The position numbers were made by a program, and so were the translations under genes. Source: Turicibacter sp. (GTDB taxonomy: Bacteria > Bacillota_I > Bacilli_A > MOL361 > Turicibacteraceae). From it: DNA of 64,000 nucleotides. Under the pieces are notes generated by a model. That model searched no databases. It saw nothing but the letters and a program-made list of their open reading frames with translations, and had not been told where the DNA came from. This document shows positions 6,368 through 37,697 of this stretch, piece after piece (the first letter of the stretch is position 1; every line of letters starts with the position of its first letter). Location of the stretch: positions 1-64,000 of the forward strand of contig WRGF01000221.1 in NCBI GenBank assembly GCA_009787345.1, read 5' to 3'.

Positions 6368-7360
6368 ATGATCAGACTAGGTGTCATCGGCACGAATTGG
6401 ATTTCCAAATCTTTTGTGGAGGCTGCCCTGGCCACCGGGAAATATGTTTTTTCTGGTGTCTATTCACGCAGGCAAGAAACCGGCGAGGCGTTTTGCCAAG
6501 GATTTGGGGGAGGTTTTACGGAAACGGATTTTATTTCGTTTTGCAACCGCGAGGACATTGATATCGCCTATATTGCGTCGCCAAATGCCCTTCATTTTGA
6601 GCAGGCCAAATCCCTCTTGATGGCAGGGACTTCTGTTATCGTTGAAAAGCCTGCTGTTTCCAATACTTATGAGTTTGAGGAAATCAAGCGGGTGTCGATG
6701 GATCATGGCACGATGTTTTTTGAAGCGGCCCGGCACATCCATGAAGCAAATTTCCAAAGCCTTCGGCAAAACCTGGCCCAAATCGGGCAGCCTATCGGTG
6801 GTTACCTGAACTACATCCAGTATTCCTCAAGGTATGATGCGGTCTTGAATGGGGAAGAGCCCAACATTTTTTCCCTTGATTATTCCGGGGGGACACTGAT
6901 GGACCTTGGGGTCTATCCGGTGTATGGGGCGGTTTCTTTGTTTGGTGAGCCTCAATCAGCCCGTTACTTTGCGAGGAAAATCAGGACCGGTGTGGATGGG
7001 TTTGGGACGATTCTCCTTGATTTTGGCAGCTTCGACCTGACCATCATGGTTTCAAAAACCGCCTATTCAAAGGCAGGCATTGAGATTTATGGGACTGAAG
7101 GCACCTTGATGGCCAATAGCATCGCCAATATCGAACACATTGAAGTGGAGTCCAAAGACGGGCTTTCCGGCAACCTCTCAGGGCCTATGGCGCCCCATGG
7201 CATGATGGAGGAAGCCGATACATTTGCTGATATCTTCTTGGATAAAGACGATGCCAGCTATGAAAAACTGCTGGAACTCTCTGAAACTGTTTGCCGGGTC
7301 ATGACCAAGTTGCGCCAAGATGGGGGCATCCAATTCCCTGCTGACAGGTATTTAAAATGA
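6368..7360 (+). CDS. Gfo/Idh/MocA family NAD(P)-dependent oxidoreductase
   Basis: A 330-residue cytoplasmic dehydrogenase-type protein. The N-terminal Rossmann fold shows LGVIGTNWIS, where the third glycine of GxGxxG is replaced, then the family signatures YIASPNALHFEQA near residue 70 and VEKPAV near 95 (the conserved EKP). The C-terminal alpha/beta domain carries GGTLMDLGVYPVYG near 180. Substrate cannot be told; sugars, inositols and dihydrodiols are typical. It is 26 bases after the MGS-like gene with a GAGGTGG ribosome site, so the two may be cotranscribed, and a terminator follows. Confidence 0.88.
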   Translation: MIRLGVIGTNWISKSFVEAALATGKYVFSGVYSRRQETGEAFCQGFGGGFTETDFISFCNREDIDIAYIASPNALHFEQAKSLLMAGTSVIVEKPAVSNTYEFEEIKRVSMDHGTMFFEAARHIHEANFQSLRQNLAQIGQPIGGYLNYIQYSSRYDAVLNGEEPNIFSLDYSGGTLMDLGVYPVYGAVSLFGEPQSARYFARKIRTGVDGFGTILLDFGSFDLTIMVSKTAYSKAGIEIYGTEGTLMANSIANIEHIEVESKDGLSGNLSGPMAPHGMMEEADTFADIFLDKDDASYEKLLELSETVCRVMTKLRQDGGIQFPADRYLK

Positions 7361-7368
7361 TTTCAAGG

Positions 7369-7396
7369 CCGGGTAGTTGCACAAGCCCGGTTTTTT
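7369..7396 (+). terminator. Rho-independent terminator
   Basis: CCGGG (7369-7373) pairs with CCCGG (7386-7390), followed by six T. Confidence 0.8.
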
Positions 7397-7602
7397 GCGA
7401 TTTTTTGTCATGTAACCCTTGCCAAAACTCATATAATATTAGTACAGTTTTAAATAAACCAAGACTGTAAATCCGTTGGCGGTTGATTGGGGTATTGTAA
7501 ATGGGGAAATGTTTGCAAGCTAAATCACTGTAAAGGGCATCAAGGCAAATTAACCAAAAAATCCATTACCAGATCAAGGGGCTCATCCAAAATAAAAACT
7601 GG

Positions 7603-7929
7603 GTGCCTGCCTTGGAAGAAACTGCTTTATCTAGGCTCAAGGGGCAGTATCCAGCCCTGTCCTACTCCAAGGATGGGGACGAAAACCTTTGGGCTGCGGC
7701 AGGCAGTGAGTGCTGGGTCCTTGAAAACGAGAGCCGCTACATCATCGCATACCTTAGGGGCTGGGAAAAAAACTGCGGCCGGTACTGCGAGCAATGGGGG
7801 CTTTACGGGATTGACCAGGATTACCAACTGGCGTGTTCGGCTATCGCCTCTATTGAGTCGTATAAGTTTGCCAGCCTAGGATCCGTTTTTTCAAAATATT
7901 ACGAAATGAGCGGCGACGGTACCTACTAA
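7603..7929 (+). CDS. Hypothetical protein, start uncertain, possibly truncated
   Basis: An open frame coding for a Trp/Tyr/Cys-containing polypeptide (WAAAGSECWVLENESRYIIA; GWEKNCGRYCEQWGLYG). The frame is open back to 7534, and the upstream part (YQIKGLIQNKNWVPALEE) looks like protein, but there is no ATG, GTG or TTG with a ribosome site; GTG 7603 is only the first standard codon. Either a rare start codon is used or the 5' end has been lost. No family recognised. A perfect terminator follows the stop and the gene stands alone between terminators. Confidence 0.45.
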   Translation: MPALEETALSRLKGQYPALSYSKDGDENLWAAAGSECWVLENESRYIIAYLRGWEKNCGRYCEQWGLYGIDQDYQLACSAIASIESYKFASLGSVFSKYYEMSGDGTY

Positions 7930-7936
7930 ACTGCAT

Positions 7937-7981
7937 AAAAAAAAGTATGGGAACCCATTCCAAACCCCCATACTTTTTTTT
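7937..7981. terminator. Bidirectional terminator
   Basis: A run of eight A, GTATGGG (7945-7951) pairing with CCCATAC (7967-7973) and a run of seven T; separates the convergent genes at 7603 and 7995. Confidence 0.85.
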
Positions 7982-7994
7982 GTTTTATAAGCTC

Positions 7995-8270
7995 TTAGTA
8001 GCTATCGCAGTCGCAGCAATCACAGTAGTCGTCATCATCCTCTTCGGAATCATCAGCACTCATGATGCTTGTGATGACAGCCAATAAGATGAACAAAACC
8101 ATGATGAAGCAAAAACTAGGTTTTTTCTCCTCTTGGGCAGCCGCTACAGCGGTAGTGTTGCAAGGAACCGGGTTCCAAGCAATAGGGGCTTGCTGGACAT
8201 AGGTTACGGGTGCCGGTTGGCTACAAGGGACCTGATTCCAAGTAATTGGGGATTGTGAGCAATATTCCAT
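7995..8270 (-). CDS. Small Cys/Asp-tailed membrane protein, copy A (YjcZ-like core)
   Basis: A 91-residue protein with three parts: an N-terminal region with two WNxVPC motifs (ITWNQVPCS and IAWNPVPCN), a membrane segment CFIMVLFILLAVI near residue 55 that resembles the VLFILLI core of sporulation-associated YjcZ-type microproteins, and an acidic tail DDSEEDDDD ending in CDCCDC. It is a paralogue of the gene at 8419-8646 and has nearly the same 60 bases upstream, including GAAAGGAAG as ribosome site. The tail could bind metal. A spore-related role is inferred from the YjcZ resemblance and promoter; no direct proof. Confidence 0.72.
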   Translation of the reverse strand: MEYCSQSPITWNQVPCSQPAPVTYVQQAPIAWNPVPCNTTAVAAAQEEKKPSFCFIMVLFILLAVITSIMSADDSEEDDDDYCDCCDCDSY

Positions 8271-8304
8271 ACATTAAGACTTCCTTTCAACTTGCGTTAC
8301 AATG

Positions 8305-8331
8305 TAGTATACGCAAGGAGGGGGGATTGGT
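8305..8331 (-). promoter_or_regulatory. Shared promoter block of the small Cys/Asp proteins, copy A
   Basis: Read on the minus strand: AACC, then 15 bases, then CGTATACTA (8313-8305), followed by a conserved ACA.TGTAACG segment. The same elements precede copy B. They resemble the mother-cell sigma-K pattern (AC at -35, CATAnnnTA at -10), with one mismatch. Confidence 0.45.
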
Positions 8332-8418
8332 TAATACTTTTATTGCTGGAAAGTAAAAAAGGCTTGAGCCAACCATTCAAAGCCCTTGCCTTTTTCGATT
8401 ATTCACCTGGGGATGCCA

Positions 8419-8646
8419 TTAGTAGCAGTCGCAGCAATCGCAGCAATCGTCATCGTCGGAATCATCAGATCCGCCAACTACATTGCAGATCAAAGCCAAA
8501 AGAATGAACAGGACAAGGATAAAACAAAGTCCGGGGCGTTCTTTTTCACCTTCTGCAGCTTGTGTGTTGCAAACTACTGTGGCATTGCAAGGAACCGCAT
8601 TCCAAACTGGTTGTTGCGCGTAGCCTCCACATGTATAGTTACACAT
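8419..8646 (-). CDS. Small Cys/Asp-tailed membrane protein, copy B (YjcZ-like core)
   Basis: A 75-residue paralogue of copy A: one VWNAVPCN motif near the N terminus, a hydrophobic segment CFILVLFILLALIC, and an acidic/cysteine tail (SDDSDDDD then CCDCCDC). GGAAGGGAG serves as ribosome site about ten bases before ATG 8646. Each copy has its own promoter block and they are 150 bases apart in the same direction, which points to tandem duplication followed by divergence of the N-terminal part, while promoter, membrane core and tail were kept. Confidence 0.72.
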   Translation of the reverse strand: MCNYTCGGYAQQPVWNAVPCNATVVCNTQAAEGEKERPGLCFILVLFILLALICNVVGGSDDSDDDDCCDCCDCY

Positions 8647-27850: not shown

Positions 27851-28558
27851 TTGGACCTTACCAGTTTTAAATCCCTAAATCCTTGCAGCAAAAGCCAGGT
27901 CAGCCAATCAATGGAAGGTGCGGCAAAAAAAATTGAGGTTTATGTCGACGGGATCGAACCCCAACTGTTCAATCGTTTGAAGCTGCCATCTTGGATTCCT
28001 ATCCATTTAACCATCTCAGCAAAATCACAGGAGCTGAATGGTGAAGGCTTCGTGGCTTTTTGTCAAAAGGTCCTTTATGAATCCATGAATATTTGTGTGG
28101 ACGAAAAAGTCCAACGCCTTGTTTCTTTTGGACGGCGCACATGCCGTGTGGCCATTGCCTTATGCACACTGGTATTAATCTTTTTTCCGATGTCAGTCCT
28201 CCTAAAATCCGGACTTTATTTTTTAATCAGCTTGGTCAGCTGGGTGATGTATCAGCTTTATCAGTACCAGGTTAAAGTGGAGGTCAGTGAAATTAAGCGA
28301 AAAACCCAGTTTAAAATATTAGATGACCTGGAACTTTCCAACCTTCCGGCTTTATATATCATTGATGATGAGAAGATATTCATGGGAAAAAATATTTGGG
28401 ACAGCGAAAACAAAGAGGCGTTTTTTGAAGTGTCCTCATTTGAAGAAGGGGTTGCTTTGAAGCTGATTTACAGGGAATACGCCAATTCCCAACCTGTAGT
28501 TGAGGAAGAGGATATACTTGCCAAATACTTGCAGGCAACTGGGCTAGGTTCCTATTGA
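27851..28558 (+). CDS. Membrane protein of unknown function
   Basis: A 235-residue protein: a soluble N-terminal region (residues 1-90), two close membrane helices around 96-140 (VAIALCTLVLIFFPMSVLL and GLYFLISLVSWVMYQLY) and a soluble acidic C-terminal region. The start is TTG 27851, supported by AAAGGAGG nine bases upstream. No family recognised. It ends at a two-layered bidirectional terminator. Confidence 0.68.
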   Translation: MDLTSFKSLNPCSKSQVSQSMEGAAKKIEVYVDGIEPQLFNRLKLPSWIPIHLTISAKSQELNGEGFVAFCQKVLYESMNICVDEKVQRLVSFGRRTCRVAIALCTLVLIFFPMSVLLKSGLYFLISLVSWVMYQLYQYQVKVEVSEIKRKTQFKILDDLELSNLPALYIIDDEKIFMGKNIWDSENKEAFFEVSSFEEGVALKLIYREYANSQPVVEEEDILAKYLQATGLGSY

Positions 28559-28559
28559 C

Positions 28560-28616
28560 CACTCCCAAAAAGAACAGGGTTGACGCCAGTCGTCAGCCCT
28601 GTTTTTTTTGGGAGTG
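28560..28616. terminator. Bidirectional terminator with nested stems
   Basis: Inner stem ACAGGGTTGAC (28574-28584) with GTCAGCCCTGT (28592-28602) and eight T; outer CACTCCC with GGGAGTG. Serves the plus-strand gene and the convergent minus-strand pair. Confidence 0.85.
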
Positions 28617-28624
28617 ATTATATT

Positions 28625-29371
28625 TTAGGGGGTGTCAGCTGGTATTCTCCCGTTTTCAGTCGATTTTGCCAGCCGTGCCAATTCTTCCATGAAGTCAAAA
28701 AATATAGCCAGGCTTTTTAGGTGTGGGCTTTGGGCCGTGCGTGATTTTAACTGGTCCAAATACCCTGGGCTAAAGACGATGGGGGCTGGTTTTGACTTAT
28801 TATAATGGTAGCCGCTTTCCTTTAGCATGGCCCGTAAGTACCGCTCGTGGTAAAGGGACGCTGTCTGGGTGCCGGCAAGGGGGTTGTTGGGCATCAACTC
28901 AGGGTCTAGGCGCTTGACGTTGTAATGTTGCCCGAATGGCATAAATAACTTGCTGTACGGGATAGGGTAAAGGGCTTGGTTGCCTAAGAGCCAGGATTCA
29001 AAGCAGATGTTTTGGATAAAGACGTAGTAAGGGATAGCCAGGGGAATCCGGTAATTCCTTATTTTTTGTTTGACCTTGTCTTTTCTTGATTGGCTATCTT
29101 CACCGTCACCATCTAAAAAAATCAGGAAATAATCGAAGCAACCTTTTTCATTGATGGTTTCAATGGTGGCCCCAAGCACATTTTTTTCGGGGGACTCGGG
29201 GTTGGTCCCTAATATGCGGGGATAGCCGTAGCCGCTGAATACAATGTAAGAATTTTCCCTGACGCTGGCGACATCCCTGGCACGTTTCATAAAGGGAAGG
29301 AGCATCCCGATCCATTCACCTATGATTTTGTGGCCGGACTTTCCATCTTCCACTAGGATGTAAAGGTTCAT
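28625..29371 (-). CDS. TOPRIM-like protein paired with an ABC-type ATPase
   Basis: A 248-residue protein with TOPRIM-like signatures: the glutamate at the end of the first strand (NLYILVEDG, E8) and a DxD motif after a hydrophobic strand (YFLIFLDGDGEDS, D87 and D89). Later conserved-looking elements are IQNICFESWLLGNQALYP near 120 and LYHERYLRAML near 175, similar in layout to DUF4276/DUF4435 and RloB-type partners. Three bases after the ATPase gene, with GGGGAGG upstream of ATG 29371, so an operon. Pairs of this kind include PARIS (AriA/AriB) and RloAB-like anti-phage modules; this one is shorter than AriB. Function inferred, nuclease activity unproven. Confidence 0.65.
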   Translation of the reverse strand: MNLYILVEDGKSGHKIIGEWIGMLLPFMKRARDVASVRENSYIVFSGYGYPRILGTNPESPEKNVLGATIETINEKGCFDYFLIFLDGDGEDSQSRKDKVKQKIRNYRIPLAIPYYVFIQNICFESWLLGNQALYPIPYSKLFMPFGQHYNVKRLDPELMPNNPLAGTQTASLYHERYLRAMLKESGYHYNKSKPAPIVFSPGYLDQLKSRTAQSPHLKSLAIFFDFMEELARLAKSTENGRIPADTP

Positions 29372-29372
29372 C

Positions 29373-30218
29373 TTAGGAGTCCTCCCCTTGGTGCAACCCG
29401 TTTTGCAGCTCGAAGAAGGCGTCATACCGGGTTTGCCCAATCCCCATTTCAGCAGCTGTCTTTGTCTTGACCAGGTTGTTTTTTCGGCTGGTGATCAACC
29501 AGTTATTTGGCGGTATGTTATTGATGACATAAGGATGGTGGCTGCTTAAGATGAGCTGGACATCATCACGCGCCAGCATTTCTTCCAATAAGACACCCAG
29601 GCAATTGGGACCCAAGCCATTTTCAAATTCATCGATCAGCAGGACACTTCCGCTGGGGGCCGATATCAACTCTTTCAAATAAGCAAAAGTTTTTAGCATC
29701 CCATCCGACATCTGACCGGGGTAGAGCCATTGCCCTTGCTTGAAACAGAGACGGTCGAAATGGACGTCAGTCACATCTTCGAAAATATAGCAATAAATGT
29801 TCCTGATTTCCTCTAGTTGCCCAGGCGGGGGGACTTTTTGCAAAAAACCGATGTCTTGGCGGATTTCCATGGTGTTTTTGGCGAAAAATAAATACGGCTT
29901 ATCCGGCAGGCTCATCAAGGTTTCAGGCGGGACCAATTCGCCATTTAAGTAAAGCAAAGCCATTGTCGGCACATGGCCTTCGACGGTGGCTAAAAAACGG
30001 TAGTTTTTTTCTTCATGGGAAAATTCCATGCCAAATTCCCCGTCGGGAAGGTCAGGCTCCAAATGGCCGCACATCAGCAGGTACGTTTCATTCAGATAGG
30101 ATAGCAGCTGGCTCTTGCCGGCTCCGGAAAGCCCAACTAAAAGGGCGGGATTCTTGAACTTCACAGGCGCAATCGTCAGGCCTGTGCTGGTGGTAGCGTA
30201 AAAGGAATGTATTTTCAT
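29373..30218 (-). CDS. ABC/OLD-type AAA ATPase, putative defence module component
   Basis: A 281-residue ATPase of the RecF/AAA_15-21 type. Walker A GLSGAGKS at residues 29-36, a lid-like signature GQMSDGMLKTFAYLKEL near 165, Walker B VLLIDEFENGLG near 190 and the switch histidines SSHHPYVINN near 222. No transmembrane or helicase motifs. ATG 30218 is chosen because GGGGGC lies nine bases upstream and it begins the ATPase strand (MKIHSFYAT). It precedes the TOPRIM-like gene. Without the long coiled coil of SMC-like proteins, it fits the small ATPases of two-gene defence or DNA-surveillance systems. Confidence 0.75.
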   Translation of the reverse strand: MKIHSFYATTSTGLTIAPVKFKNPALLVGLSGAGKSQLLSYLNETYLLMCGHLEPDLPDGEFGMEFSHEEKNYRFLATVEGHVPTMALLYLNGELVPPETLMSLPDKPYLFFAKNTMEIRQDIGFLQKVPPPGQLEEIRNIYCYIFEDVTDVHFDRLCFKQGQWLYPGQMSDGMLKTFAYLKELISAPSGSVLLIDEFENGLGPNCLGVLLEEMLARDDVQLILSSHHPYVINNIPPNNWLITSRKNNLVKTKTAAEMGIGQTRYDAFFELQNGLHQGEDS

Positions 30219-30314
30219 GGCGTTAGCCCCCAAACATGATTGCTTAATATAGTGTATGTTTTTTTGGGGGGCTTGTTCGTTTTTAGGCATATAAAAAGGA
30301 TACGCAGGGGTATC

Positions 30315-31031
30315 CTAGTCTTCTTGATGGTCTTGATAGCGTTGATTGTCGATTTCACGGTACATCTTCATCCTGTCTTTGAACAAGTCGCCGTTGCTTG
30401 GCGGCGTGAAGGTGATGGCATTGGCACCGGCTTCGATGGTCTCGTTGATGGATGCGTCGGTGGGCCCGCCGGTTGCAATGATAGGCACTAAAGGATATTC
30501 ACTGCGGATCCGCTTGACGATGGCTGCTGTTTTGGCACCGCCGGAAACGTTGATGATGTCAGCCCCGGATTCAAGTTTCTCAGCAATGTCTGCAAATTCG
30601 GACACGATGGTGCAAATCACAGGGATGTCGATGCTTTCCTTGACATAACGGATGGTTTCAGATGGGGTGGGGGCATTGAGCACGACCCCGATGGCGCCCT
30701 GGAATTCGGCATGAAGGGCAATGTTCCCGCTCCTTGTCCCATGGGTCAGCCCGCCGCCAACGCCGCAAATGACCGGGATGTCGGATACCGTCAGGATCGC
30801 CTGTGTAATGGTTGGCTGTGGGGTGAAGGGGTAAACAGCAATGACGGCATCGGCATCTGTGTTTTTGATGATGGCCACGTCGGTGGTGAAAATAAAAGAT
30901 TTAAGCCGCTTGCCAAAAAAACGGATGCCACTGGCTTCCCTGATAATGCCAGGGACCCGCACAAAATTATTCCTTAGGTTCGTGGTAATCTCAGGTACTA
31001 CCTTTATCCGGTTTTTACTGGGTGTGTTCAT
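30315..31031 (-). CDS. TIM-barrel protein of unknown specificity
   Basis: A 238-residue (beta/alpha)8-type protein. Strand-loop motifs include ADAVIAVYPFTPQPTITQAI, VICGVGGGLTHGTRSGNIAL, AIGVVLNAPTP, ADIINVSGGAKTA and the phosphate-binding-like PIIATGGPTDASI near 195, which resemble phosphate-binding TIM barrels such as NanE or TrpF-like enzymes. Reaction unknown; members are often annotated loosely as hydrolases. AAGGGGGAC is the ribosome site. It stands alone on the minus strand between the ATPase pair and the glycosylase. Confidence 0.7.
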   Translation of the reverse strand: MNTPSKNRIKVVPEITTNLRNNFVRVPGIIREASGIRFFGKRLKSFIFTTDVAIIKNTDADAVIAVYPFTPQPTITQAILTVSDIPVICGVGGGLTHGTRSGNIALHAEFQGAIGVVLNAPTPSETIRYVKESIDIPVICTIVSEFADIAEKLESGADIINVSGGAKTAAIVKRIRSEYPLVPIIATGGPTDASINETIEAGANAITFTPPSNGDLFKDRMKMYREIDNQRYQDHQED

Positions 31032-31819: not shown

Positions 31820-31888
31820 AATTTTTCAAAATTTCCAGTAGGTTGTATAAGGCAGCGGGCGGTGCCCCATAATACGTTAGGTGATAAC

Positions 31889-32599
31889 ATGAATAAACAA
31901 ATTGTATACATAGCTTATTTGATCGTTTTTTTCGTTATTTTCAATTTTTCTTATGGTTTTACCGACTGGATTGCTTCTTGGCAAATGTGGCATTGGTATA
32001 TGGTCATTTTGAGCGTTGTCTTTGTCGGGCTCATCTATGCCAAGCTTAAGCAAAATGAACGGAAAAACCGGTTATGGGCCCAGATTAGGGAAGCGGAAGA
32101 GATGCGGATGCAGCTTAGCCAGCTTTTGATTTTTGAACAATTGAACCACTTAGATGAAACCACATTTGATTATTTTTTGAAACAGGTTTTTGGGCTTAAG
32201 GGATTTGAGTCCATTGATGATGCCCCTGTTGGAAGTGGAATCGACCTTTTGATGTGGTCCAAAGGGGCCAAAGTGGCCCTGAAATGGTTTAAGACCGCAC
32301 CTCTTATGAGCCATATCTATAAAGATAAGGCTACCGCTGCTCAGGCGGGGGAAGCCGTGGGGATCAAACAGGTGCGGGAGGCATTCGGGGCTATGAAAGA
32401 TGCCGAAGTTGCGGCACAGCGGCTAATCGTCATCTCAACCGGGAGTTTCGATGAGGCTGCCACCCGATTTGCCAGCCGCAATGGGATAGAATTGATGGAT
32501 GGCGGGGATTTTTACGAATCCCTGGAAAACTTGCGGGAACCAGCCGGAAGCGAAGGGTATGATGGAATGGGAGAGGCCCCGTTTTTAGTAAACATTTAG
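31889..32599 (+). CDS. Membrane-anchored restriction-endonuclease-like (Mrr) protein
   Basis: A 236-residue protein with two N-terminal membrane helices (residues 4-22 and 33-52) followed by an Mrr_cat-like domain: LDETTFDYFLKQVFGLKGFE near 87, GSGIDLLMWSKGAKVALKWFK near 112, VGIKQVREAFGAMK near 150, RLIVISTGSFDEAATRFASR and GIELMDGGDFYESL. In Mrr enzymes the catalytic set is D...QxK; here the QxK position reads ALK, so the Q is lost and activity is doubtful. ATG 31889 follows TTAGGTGA. Followed by a small membrane protein 12 bases later. Confidence 0.75.
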   Translation: MNKQIVYIAYLIVFFVIFNFSYGFTDWIASWQMWHWYMVILSVVFVGLIYAKLKQNERKNRLWAQIREAEEMRMQLSQLLIFEQLNHLDETTFDYFLKQVFGLKGFESIDDAPVGSGIDLLMWSKGAKVALKWFKTAPLMSHIYKDKATAAQAGEAVGIKQVREAFGAMKDAEVAAQRLIVISTGSFDEAATRFASRNGIELMDGGDFYESLENLREPAGSEGYDGMGEAPFLVNI

Positions 32600-34118: not shown

Positions 34119-37100
34119 ATGTATTTGAAAAGAATCGAAACCATTGGTTTCAAATCGTTTGCAGATAAAACAACGGTCCAGTTCGAACCAGGGGTCACTG
34201 CGGTTGTTGGACCCAATGGTTCAGGGAAATCCAATATTTCCGATGCCGTCCGCTGGGTGTTAGGGGAACAGTCCGCCAAGTCGTTGCGGGGCGGGAAAAT
34301 GGAGGATATAATTTTTGCTGGGACCCAGACAAGAAAAGCCCTCAATTATGCGGAGGTTACTTTGGTCCTTGACAACAGCTGCCAAACCCTGCCGCTTGAT
34401 TTTGATGAAATCGGGGTGACCCGGCGGGTATTTAGGACAGGGGAAAGCGAATACCTGATCAACCGCCAAAAGGTTAGGTTAAAGGATGTCGTGGACTTAA
34501 TGATGGATACGGGAATTGGGCACGATTCGCTATCCATGATATCACAGGACCGGGTCAAAGCCATTGTTGAATCTAAAGTTGACGAACGGCGCGTCATCAT
34601 TGAGGAAGCCGCCGGCGTCTTGAAATATAAGATGAGGAAAAAAGAAGCCGGGCGCAAGCTGCAATCGACGGTGGACAACCTAAGCCGTGTCTATGACATC
34701 ATTTATGAACTTGAGGACCAAATCGAGCCCTTGAAAAAGCAGGCGAAAACAGCCCAGGCTTACCAAGAACTGAGGGGAAAAATGAGCAGCTCAGAACTTG
34801 CCATGCTAGGATATGAAATTACCCGGCTGAACACCCAGGCGCTGGCAACCAGGTCGCAAAACCAAGAAGCCCAAATCGAACTTTTGGCCATCAACCAAAA
34901 ATCGGCAGCCGATGATGCTTTGCGGCAATCCCTAAAGGACGTTCTCATCAAGAAAGAAAAGGATTTAGCATCTTGCCAGGAAAAATTGGTTGAAACATCG
35001 GAGCTTATCCAAAAACTTTCTGGGCAGCGGGATGTTTTGGCAGAACGGCAAAAAAACGCCACGACAAACAAAGAAGAATTAAGGCGCCAGCAAGAAAGCC
35101 TGAAGGCTGCCCTGCAACTTGCCCAAAAATCTTTTAAGGAGGCAGGGGAGGCAACTAAAAAAACGGAAGGGCAGATACAAAAGACCCGCGCTGATTTAGA
35201 AGCATCCGAGTCGAAATACCAACATCTTGAAGCGGATTTGCAGACCCAGCACGAAGAGGCAAAGTCGGCATTTTATAGTTTTCAAAACCAACTGGTGCAA
35301 GTGAAAGACCTATACCAGACAGTTTTAGGGCAGGTGGACAAAGCGGAGACCTCCCTCGAACAGACAAGGGTTGATATAACGGGCACAGCAGGTGAAAAAT
35401 TGGCGCTTGCTGAAGAAACCGCCACCTTTTTTGAAAAATTTGAACGGATGGAAGAGGAACTGAAAGAGCGGCGCCAAAACTATAAAGCGGCTTTTTCAAA
35501 AACCAAGGAGCTTGAGGAAAACCATAGCCGGGCTAAAAATGAGTGGGTCGCCCTGACCCATCAAGTTGATAAAACCCAAGGGAGGCTCCATTGGCTGGAA
35601 GAAGCCCAAAAAGACTTTTCCGGCTTTAATGAAGGGGTTAAGAAAATCCTTCAGGCCAAGGAACATAACAAAGTGCCAGGGATTGTAGGTGCCATTGCCC
35701 AGTTAGTGGATATCCCAAAAGAACTGGAAACAGCCATGGATGTCATCTTAGGGCCGATGATGCAGCAAATCGTGACACAAACCGATAAGGATGCCCAACA
35801 AGCGATTAGGTACCTAAAGGATAAGCGGGCGGGAAGGGCGACTTTCCTGCCGCTGAATGTCATCAAGCCCAGGATGCTGCCGGAACAAATCCAAAGACAG
35901 GTGGAGCAAGAAATTGGTGTGGTAGGAGTGGCTGCCAAATTAGTAGACTATGAGTCGAAGTACAGCCATATTTTTGGGAACCTCTTGGGAAGCATCGTAG
36001 TGACCAAGGACCTTGCCAGCGCTAACCGGTTGGCGAAAACCCTAGCTTACCGTTACCGTATCGTGACCCTTGAAGGTGATGTGGTCAACACCGGTGGTTC
36101 CATGACAGGTGGGGCGGTCAAACGCCAAGGTTCTTCTTTGCTCAGGCAAAAAAATGAACTGGAGGACATCCGCCAACGCCTGGATCAGCAAATTTTGGAT
36201 AAGGAAGCCCTGGAAGTGCAGGTTGCTGTATTGCAGGGGCAATTGCAAGAGCAAAAAAGCATTGAAGAGAAACTCCTGGCTTCAGGCGATCGGCTGAAAG
36301 AACGCCTGGGCAAACTGAATGGCGAAAAAGTCGCTTACGAATATAAGGCACGCTCCCTGGATGAAAGATTGCGGCTGTTGCAGTCCCAAAAAGAAATTTT
36401 GAAAAAAGAAGCGCAAGAACTGGCGAAAAAACTTAATTCACTCGCTGAAAAACGGGTCGCACTGGAAGCGGGCATCCTTGAAAAAGAAGGAATCATGGCA
36501 AACCTCGAGTTGCAGATTGGGCAGCAAGAACAATTGAAAGCCGGGCTCCTTCAGGGGATTACCGATAAAAAAATCGAGCTTGCCCGATTGGAAACACAGC
36601 TTGAAGGGCGGGAACTTGACCAGGACCGCTATTATGCCGAACTAGGAAGCGTGCGGGGGCGACTGGATGAAATAAGTGAGCGGATCAATTCAAGCGACGG
36701 GACATTAGTTGGTAACGATGGTGAAATCGAGCGGCTAGGGGTGGAAGTTTCGGCACTGCGGGTCAAACGGGAGGAAATCTTGGAACAAATCCAAGTTGAC
36801 AGGGCCAATCAGTCCAAAACTACCCTTGAACTGGAACAAACGGAACTAAGCTTAAGGGAAGGGCGCCGCCATGCCCAGGCCCTTTCTGAAACCGTCCATA
36901 AAAATGAAGTCGCCCTTGGAAAAATCGACGTGGAAATGGACGCGCTGCTCAAGCGGATTGAAACAGATTACCAGATGACCTATGACTTCGTGGTGCAAAA
37001 TTATCCGTTGAAAGAAGCCGTGCAGGACGCCCAAAAGAAAATTATGGCATACAAAAAAGAAATCGAGGCACTGGGCGAAGTCAATACAGGCGCCATCGCT

Positions 37101-37697
37101 GAATACGGGCGGGTGCGGGAACGGTATGACTTTTTAGTGGCCCAGCAAGACGACCTGCTCATCGCCAAGGAGAACTTGGAGGAAACCATCAACGAAATGG
37201 ATGTGGAAATGGCGGCTAAATTCAAGGAAACGTTTGACCAGGTCCGCGTCCATTACATTGAGATCTTCAAAAAACTTTTCGGCGGGGGGAATGCTGACTT
37301 GATCCTGACGGATCCAGACGACTTGCTGGGAACGGGGGTCGAGATCATCGCACAGCCGCCGGGGACCAAGCTCAAGACTTCAAACCTGTTATCAGGCGGG
37401 CAAAAAGCACTGACGTCCATCGCCTTGCTATTTGGAATCCTGAAGGTGCGAAGCGTCCCATTTTGTATTTTGGATGAGGTTGAGGCGGCTCTTGATGAGG
37501 CCAATGTGTCCAGGTACGCCACGTATTTGAAGGCATTTAGCCAAGACACCCAGTTCATCGTCATCACCCACCGTAAAGGGACCATGGAAAAAGCCGACGT
37601 CTTATATGGCGTCACCATGCAGGAACGGGGCGTCACGAAACTGGTTTCCGTGCGCATGGACACCGTGGGCGGTTACTTAGATGAAGAAATAGCATAG
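34119..37697 (+). CDS. smc: Chromosome segregation protein SMC
   Basis: Condensin ATPase of 1192 residues, standard length. Walker A VGPNGSGKSNISDAVRWVLG near 32, Q-loop region, long coiled coil, hinge around residues 520-650 (VPGIVGAIAQLV onward, with GGSMTGGAVKR near 650), second coiled coil, then the C-terminal signature LLSGGQKALTSIALLFGIL near 1090 and Walker B FCILDEVEAALDEANVSRY near 1115. The start ATG 34119 has only a weak AAGGATG site. ScpA and ScpB are not in the window. First gene of smc-ftsY-ylxM-ffh. Confidence 0.98.
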   Translation: MYLKRIETIGFKSFADKTTVQFEPGVTAVVGPNGSGKSNISDAVRWVLGEQSAKSLRGGKMEDIIFAGTQTRKALNYAEVTLVLDNSCQTLPLDFDEIGVTRRVFRTGESEYLINRQKVRLKDVVDLMMDTGIGHDSLSMISQDRVKAIVESKVDERRVIIEEAAGVLKYKMRKKEAGRKLQSTVDNLSRVYDIIYELEDQIEPLKKQAKTAQAYQELRGKMSSSELAMLGYEITRLNTQALATRSQNQEAQIELLAINQKSAADDALRQSLKDVLIKKEKDLASCQEKLVETSELIQKLSGQRDVLAERQKNATTNKEELRRQQESLKAALQLAQKSFKEAGEATKKTEGQIQKTRADLEASESKYQHLEADLQTQHEEAKSAFYSFQNQLVQVKDLYQTVLGQVDKAETSLEQTRVDITGTAGEKLALAEETATFFEKFERMEEELKERRQNYKAAFSKTKELEENHSRAKNEWVALTHQVDKTQGRLHWLEEAQKDFSGFNEGVKKILQAKEHNKVPGIVGAIAQLVDIPKELETAMDVILGPMMQQIVTQTDKDAQQAIRYLKDKRAGRATFLPLNVIKPRMLPEQIQRQVEQEIGVVGVAAKLVDYESKYSHIFGNLLGSIVVTKDLASANRLAKTLAYRYRIVTLEGDVVNTGGSMTGGAVKRQGSSLLRQKNELEDIRQRLDQQILDKEALEVQVAVLQGQLQEQKSIEEKLLASGDRLKERLGKLNGEKVAYEYKARSLDERLRLLQSQKEILKKEAQELAKKLNSLAEKRVALEAGILEKEGIMANLELQIGQQEQLKAGLLQGITDKKIELARLETQLEGRELDQDRYYAELGSVRGRLDEISERINSSDGTLVGNDGEIERLGVEVSALRVKREEILEQIQVDRANQSKTTLELEQTELSLREGRRHAQALSETVHKNEVALGKIDVEMDALLKRIETDYQMTYDFVVQNYPLKEAVQDAQKKIMAYKKEIEALGEVNTGAIAEYGRVRERYDFLVAQQDDLLIAKENLEETINEMDVEMAAKFKETFDQVRVHYIEIFKKLFGGGNADLILTDPDDLLGTGVEIIAQPPGTKLKTSNLLSGGQKALTSIALLFGILKVRSVPFCILDEVEAALDEANVSRYATYLKAFSQDTQFIVITHRKGTMEKADVLYGVTMQERGVTKLVSVRMDTVGGYLDEEIA

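Follow-up and report, generated by a model that had tools for sequence, protein, structure and literature searches.

Positions 28625-30218 of the window, by which we mean the whole 64,000-nucleotide stretch of DNA that was analysed, hold two genes on the minus strand, where the original prediction had placed an ATPase gene and a partner gene. Gene A (29373..30218) encodes an OLD/SMC-type ABC ATPase of 281 amino acids, a putative sensor that would restrain a nuclease, and is assigned on a match to AAA_21, an AlphaFold2 model and structural alignments. Gene B (28625..29371) encodes a 248-amino-acid protein with a predicted Toprim fold, the putative nuclease effector, and is assigned on an AlphaFold2 model, alignments with OLD nucleases and a profile-profile alignment (hhalign) to RloB. 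The motifs that had been quoted for these proteins are exact: GLSGAGKS begins at residue 29 of A, LLIDEFENG at 193 and SSHHPYVINN at 225, and LVEDG and FLDGDGED begin at residues 6 and 85 of B. Two details of the layout need correction, as the claimed spacing of three bases between the genes is actually a single base (TAA-G-ATG, from the stop codon of A to the start codon of B), and the pair is not alone on the minus strand, given that the upstream enzyme gene at 30315-31031 also lies there.

This gene pair is not a chance reading, because A matches AAA_21, B is conserved in Turicibacter, both proteins carry invariant residues and both genes are under purifying selection. The ratio of dN to dS is approximately 0.07-0.08 in the closest pair of sequences, for which dS is near saturation. 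Gene A is more variable than gene B, and far more variable than the neighbouring enzyme gene. An inverted repeat just upstream of gene A (30225..30273) has 10-nucleotide arms, AGCCCCCAAA and TTGGGGGGCT, and a 29-nucleotide spacer, flanks an AT-rich stretch resembling a -10 element, and is a possible operator or a possible hairpin over the ribosome-binding site. A terminator-like hairpin follows the upstream gene on the minus strand (30297..30316) and would part that gene from the pair, with the caveat that the count of such hairpins is not above that in shuffled sequences. On the other side, a second inverted repeat (28560..28616, with arms of 26 nucleotides) separates gene B from the convergent gene 27851-28558 and is likely to be a bidirectional terminator. 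A promoter scan gave nothing above shuffles.

A matches Pfam AAA_21 at 2.5e-17 (64.3 bits, cut-off 27), and its AlphaFold2 model, which was built from 11 sequences (pLDDT 83.5), predicts an ABC head like those of SMC, Rad50 and OLD proteins. This model aligns with Rad50 at Z 20.4 and with PtuA of Septu and retron systems at Z 18.9, and also with AriA of PARIS (Z 18.0, rmsd 3.2 over 236 residues). The protein has the Walker A, signature, Walker B and H-loop motifs of an OLD-superfamily ABC ATPase, all encoded on the minus strand and each with residues that are invariant in 18 relatives: G29, G32, G34 and K35 in the Walker A motif GLSGAGKS (30111..30134); S171 and G173 in the signature region MSDGMLKTF (29685..29711), in which the signature MSDGMLKT begins at residue 170; D196, E197, E199 and N200 in the Walker B motif and D-loop, LLIDEFENG (29616..29642); and S226, H227, H228, P229 and Y230 in the H-loop, SSHHPYVINN (29517..29546). 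In PADLOC the best matches of A are AriA and AbiLi (7.1e-16 for AbiLi), and the AbiLi profile matches A in all 18 of the 18 family members, as it also does the housekeeping SMC protein of the window (4.6e-11). Since this SMC protein (34119-37697) matches both AriA and AbiLi, these matches are unspecific, and we discounted AriA as the best PADLOC match on the grounds that it is generic.

The description of the pair as compact holds for its ATPase. In Turicibacteraceae, A spans 281-304 amino acids (281 in the window), compared with 351-390 in relatives from other families, and is thus about 70-100 amino acids shorter. The difference in length falls in the middle of the protein, which is its variable part and is modelled at a pLDDT of only about 58-60 around residues 101-130. 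The central segment that is missing from the Turicibacteraceae protein could hold the sensor.

In Pfam, NCBIfam and PADLOC, the product of gene B stays below the cut-off of every family, and its sub-threshold scores include 14.8 bits for DUF4276 (cut-off 30.2). A sequence search for relatives of solved structure, made with B and with its profile, found none. The AlphaFold2 model (pLDDT 89.3, pTM 0.87) nevertheless predicts the order of elements of a Toprim domain (strand 3-7, helix 12-24, strand 41-46, helix 65-76, strand 81-87, helix 93-106 and strand 115-120), and the original view of the pair as an ABC/OLD-type ATPase adjoining a Toprim-fold protein is thereby borne out by the models and structural alignments of both proteins. 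Foldseek comparisons of B with PDB and BFVD gave no significant match, and the sole interpretable viral one is an RloB-like phage protein (probability 0.84). With a second-look aligner, the model of B matches the Toprim regions of OLD proteins (6nk8 at Z 8.0 over 171 residues and 6njv at Z 7.8) as well as the uncharacterised protein PH0156 (2p62, Z 10.2) and the Toprim domains of topoisomerase I (Z ~6.6); AriB is absent from the match list, an absence that carries no weight in either direction. Because other alpha/beta folds align at similar Z, the fold alone is only moderately telling, and the Toprim assignment is strengthened by the equivalence of residues. The match to OLD at Z 8 is accordingly a modest one that rests also on this equivalence.

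In the OLD nuclease of Burkholderia pseudomallei (Bp OLD), the residues for metal A are E400, D455 and D457 and those for metal B are E404, T506 and E508, with K562 in an assisting role (PMC6755086). The predicted counterparts in B can be followed through 20 relatives. E8 (29348..29350, minus strand, as are the sites below) is invariant and is equivalent to E400; in the DxD motif D87-G-D89 (29105..29113), equivalent to D455 and D457, D87 is invariant and position 89 is D or E; and C123-F-E125 (28997..29005), a putative metal-B site with the spacing of T506-x-E508, has both C123 and E125 invariant. The lysine K192 (28796..28798), in the C-terminal helical part, is likewise invariant, and we propose it as the counterpart of K562. 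The glutamate, the DxD motif, the metal-B acid and the lysine that mark an OLD-superfamily Toprim are therefore present in B, and the equivalent of E404 is missing in the Turicibacteraceae branch: position 13 is glycine in all five of its proteins and glutamate in all 15 of the other tabulated relatives. Single ligand substitutions in OLD, including E404A, had no discernible effect on cleavage (PMC6755086), so Gly13 does not imply that the Turicibacteraceae protein has lost its activity.

Modules that link an OLD-ABC ATPase to a TOPRIM domain are well described as a kind (PMC12839542), and the A-B pair is thus a variant within a known kind. It is not PARIS, one of the two systems originally suggested, because B has no DUF4435. 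PARIS is defined by an AAA_15 or AAA_21 ATPase above the cut-off and by a DUF4435 partner or fused domain at 27 bits or more (PMC9122126). The ATPase part of this definition describes A, but DUF4435 was not found in B at E-values up to 1, and PF14491 was without a match in the whole of the pair's own genome. What the pair shares with PARIS is the split arrangement of OLD-ABC ATPase and Toprim effector, whereas A is far shorter than AriA (464 amino acids). The other suggestion, an RloAB-type pair, comes closer to the mark. In both RloA/RloB and AbiL (AbiLi/AbiLii), an ATPase of AAA_21 type precedes a partner with a Toprim fold, and the B family, judged by its sequence profile, is a remote relative of RloB (hhalign probability 97%, E 2.8e-11), with which relatives of B share the motifs EG..(T/S)E, DxD and C-x-E-x-W-x-L. 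The AbiLii profile matches 15 of the 20 B family members (best 1.3e-7), but it does not match the window protein, which also falls below the RloB cut-off (15.8 against 31.5 bits). Moreover, where RloB has SNPCFE-x-W-x-L-x-H, B has QN-x-C-x-E-x-W-x-L-G-N, along with a long C-terminal region of its own with D-P-E and Y-x-K motifs, and its second Glu is lost in Turicibacteraceae. By these profiles and motifs, we regard RloAB/AbiL as the nearest relative and the pair as falling outside its formal membership.

Other systems resemble the pair in part. OLD and GajA combine an ABC ATPase with a Toprim domain that has the same metal ligands, and B aligns with the C-terminal regions of OLD, but these proteins are single chains and the pair is two. 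Gabija also needs a UvrD-like helicase, GajB, and no helicase neighbours the A-B pair. PtuA is the closest defence-protein fold to A, yet its partner PtuB is an HNH nuclease, whereas B is a predicted Toprim protein without an HNH match, and the locus has no retron parts. The AAA:TOPRIM_OLD pairs found by NetFlax (D29 with D44 or D60) are similar to the A-B pair at the level of two-component logic; D44 is described as RloB-homologous, and pairs of an AAA protein with an RloB-type or OLD-Toprim protein act as toxin-antitoxin pairs in E. coli (PMC10440598). A search of the phylum for DUF4276 returned no match, but as its controls likewise returned none, it carries no information.

The window genome represents a separate genus within Turicibacteraceae. 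Among 392 genomes of the phylum, matches came from this family only. B is 50-54% identical to its counterparts in four Turicibacter genomes, in which the pair lies on the same side of the 30315-31031 gene, with the counterpart of the 27851 gene on its other side; locus L026 is that of Turicibacter sp. UBA7094. In the closed Turicibacter genome G005 (locus L065) the flanks are kept and both pair genes are missing, making it a natural empty site, and the pair was not found in either of the two genomes of a sister genus (g2). The five Turicibacteraceae proteins form one clade with 100/100 support in the tree of A and again in that of B. In the window genome the pair is chromosomal and single-copy, amid core genes (RecN-like, SpoIVB, Spo0A, MgtC, SMC, FtsY and Ffh), with an aldolase-like enzyme, a family-less protein, MPG and an Mrr-like protein as its neighbours. 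The Turicibacteraceae pair is therefore old, vertically inherited and outside any island, and it is dispensable, because G005 and both sister-genus genomes lack it.

Some of these neighbours merit a separate description. The upstream enzyme (30315-31031, minus strand) is aldolase-like, with a TIM-barrel-like character, is above no Pfam or NCBIfam cut-off and occurs in eight of eight family genomes at 70-80% identity. The family-less protein encoded at 27851-28558 is fast-evolving (26-30% identity to Turicibacter) at a constant locus where its neighbours are far better conserved. The protein encoded at 31862-32599 is membrane-anchored, matches Mrr_cat (1.7e-11) and is kept near the pair locus in Turicibacter (L024:4308-5093 and L065:1541-2320), and it appears to belong to the chromosomal neighbourhood and not to an island. 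We rejected the earlier reading of an Mrr-like protein and a glycosylase as a defence block, as these genes lie in a core region and the Mrr-like one is found close to the locus in Turicibacter as well.

We found 20-odd relatives in all, and beyond Turicibacteraceae the family-profile scans gave relatives of B at 27-37% identity in Clostridiaceae, Paenibacillus, Bacteroidota and Planktothrix. In genome contigs, B used as a single sequence gave no match and an alignment-based profile gave relatives; in viral contigs, a five-sequence alignment gave no match and a 20-sequence alignment did. Where a relative locus extends far enough, the gene just upstream of B is always that of the ATPase, and the pairwise identities of the two proteins are correlated (Mantel r 0.89, and 0.80 for 13 divergent loci without near relatives; p 0.0001). 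Relatives of B are carried on plasmids of Bernardetia, Nostoc, Planktothrix, Methylovorus, Proteus and Acinetobacter, and others are in viral contigs. The original view is also supported in that some relatives occur in defence settings. P2-like prophages (L042-L045 and L072) have the pair in the interval from the replication gene gpA to the portal gene gpQ, as does E. coli 23CRST009, alone among 5,426 genomes of that species. This interval is described as a hotspot of anti-phage systems, and in P2 itself it holds old and tin (Rousset et al., PMC9122126). Plasmid p1 of Planktothrix carries the pair adjoining a GmrSD protein and a XamI restriction-modification pair, and in Flavipsychrobacter it lies about 3 kb from a separate AAA_21 and DUF4276 pair (L029 4088-5864). 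What the analysis itself shows is that the two genes are constant partners in a fixed order and diverge in step, that they have predicted ABC and Toprim folds and conserved catalytic residues, and that relatives stand in the defence hotspot and on plasmids.

Other mobile carriers were also encountered. The inovirus-like elements L037 and L046 carry the pair as cargo, which is unusual for phages so small, and L037 has a Zot-like gene, a capsid gene and an integrase. A Proteus terrae plasmid (L038) has two copies of the pair (6688-8554 and 1082-2949), in one of which the annotation breaks the ATPase into two overlapping frames, next to an identical B. On a small mobilizable plasmid of Acinetobacter pittii (L039 4182-4853), the pair accompanies the carbapenemase gene blaOXA-72.

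We believe that the pair is, on balance, a two-gene toxin-restraint (abortive-infection) module of the OLD-ABC ATPase and Toprim kind, in which A senses infection and restrains the nuclease B, and that it probably represents an anti-phage ‘suicide’ system in compact form, resident on the chromosome and from a little-described family. In such a mechanism, A would dimerise or oligomerise through its ABC head and keep B inactive in uninfected cells, until a phage-made trigger or phage-caused damage shifts the ATP state or conformation of A and releases B. The freed B would dimerise and cut nucleic acid, most likely host RNA such as tRNA, with one or two metal ions, and the resulting halt in growth would abort the infection before the phage finishes. 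We infer sensing, restraint, nuclease activity, the RNA target and the abortive outcome from PARIS, AbiL and the AAA:TOPRIM toxin-antitoxin pairs; in PARIS, a hexamer of AriA holds the tRNase AriB, a two-metal enzyme (PMC12409363). In Turicibacteraceae, the module has settled on the chromosome as a vertically inherited pair of genes, with its ATPase reduced. Several points count against this reading, namely, in Turicibacteraceae, a conserved housekeeping neighbourhood without defence genes nearby, the glycine at the position equivalent to a metal-B ligand and the missing central segment of A, and, in addition, the unspecific nature of the AriA match.

A rival reading is that only the mobile relatives serve in defence, and that in Turicibacteraceae the pair was domesticated and now has a cellular role, for instance in RNA processing, DNA repair, stress or sporulation. 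We consider this unlikely, even though the pair occupies the same chromosomal site beside the same gene in the window genus and four Turicibacter species, is under purifying selection, forms a single fully supported clade in both trees, and combines the shortened ATPase with the loss of E13 in this clade only. Reportedly, an archaeal ATPase of the OLD family also serves the cell cycle and not defence (PMC12796447). Against domestication, the pair is dispensable, being absent from G005 and from both genomes of the sister genus, the catalytic residues E8, D87, D89 and E125 are all retained, and the variability of A relative to B and to the neighbouring enzyme is as expected of a sensor. A somewhat better prospect, though still a doubtful one, is that the favoured mechanism is correct in all but its target, and that B degrades or nicks incoming phage DNA, like an OLD or Gabija nuclease, instead of cutting host RNA. 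Of the interpretable matches of B to solved structures, the best are to OLD DNA nucleases in their Toprim regions, and the layout of its active site matches theirs. The Toprims of OLD and Gabija cut DNA, which counts against an RNA target for B. The Toprim fold does not decide the substrate, however, and the pair has no helicase partner and consists of separate chains, as does PARIS, whose Toprim cuts tRNA (PMC12409363). Poorer still are the chances that the genes are a toxin-antitoxin pair kept by addiction, for plasmid or prophage maintenance and without phage sensing, which would be compatible with defence. Carriage by small plasmids, including the Proteus plasmid with its two copies, and the neutralisation seen among AAA and Toprim pairs (PMC10440598) would suit such a role, but the window pair is chromosomal, single-copy and cleanly missing from G005, and the prophage copies are in a locus rich in anti-phage systems (PMC9122126).

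A more speculative reading is that the ancestor of Turicibacteraceae captured an anti-phage ATPase-Toprim module, which then became a fixed, minimal and vertically inherited device for a cell function or for core immunity. Such a device, which we think improbable, would combine an ATPase that has lost the variable insert with a Toprim whose altered metal site (G13 and H14) makes it a one-metal or regulatory one, and would have a trigger other than phage.

The pair family does not overturn current views. What is new here is a coherent family, its placement in a defence hotspot, and a reduced, chromosomally fixed branch in Turicibacteraceae. The OLD-ABC/Toprim group thereby gains a family that spans Bacillota, Bacteroidota, Cyanobacteriota and Pseudomonadota and is unnamed by Pfam, NCBIfam and PADLOC. 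The P2-like prophage copy provides a tractable test case in E. coli, and the minimal version from a gut genus, with its changed ATPase size and metal site, would help to tell the sensing parts of these ATPases from the restraining ones.
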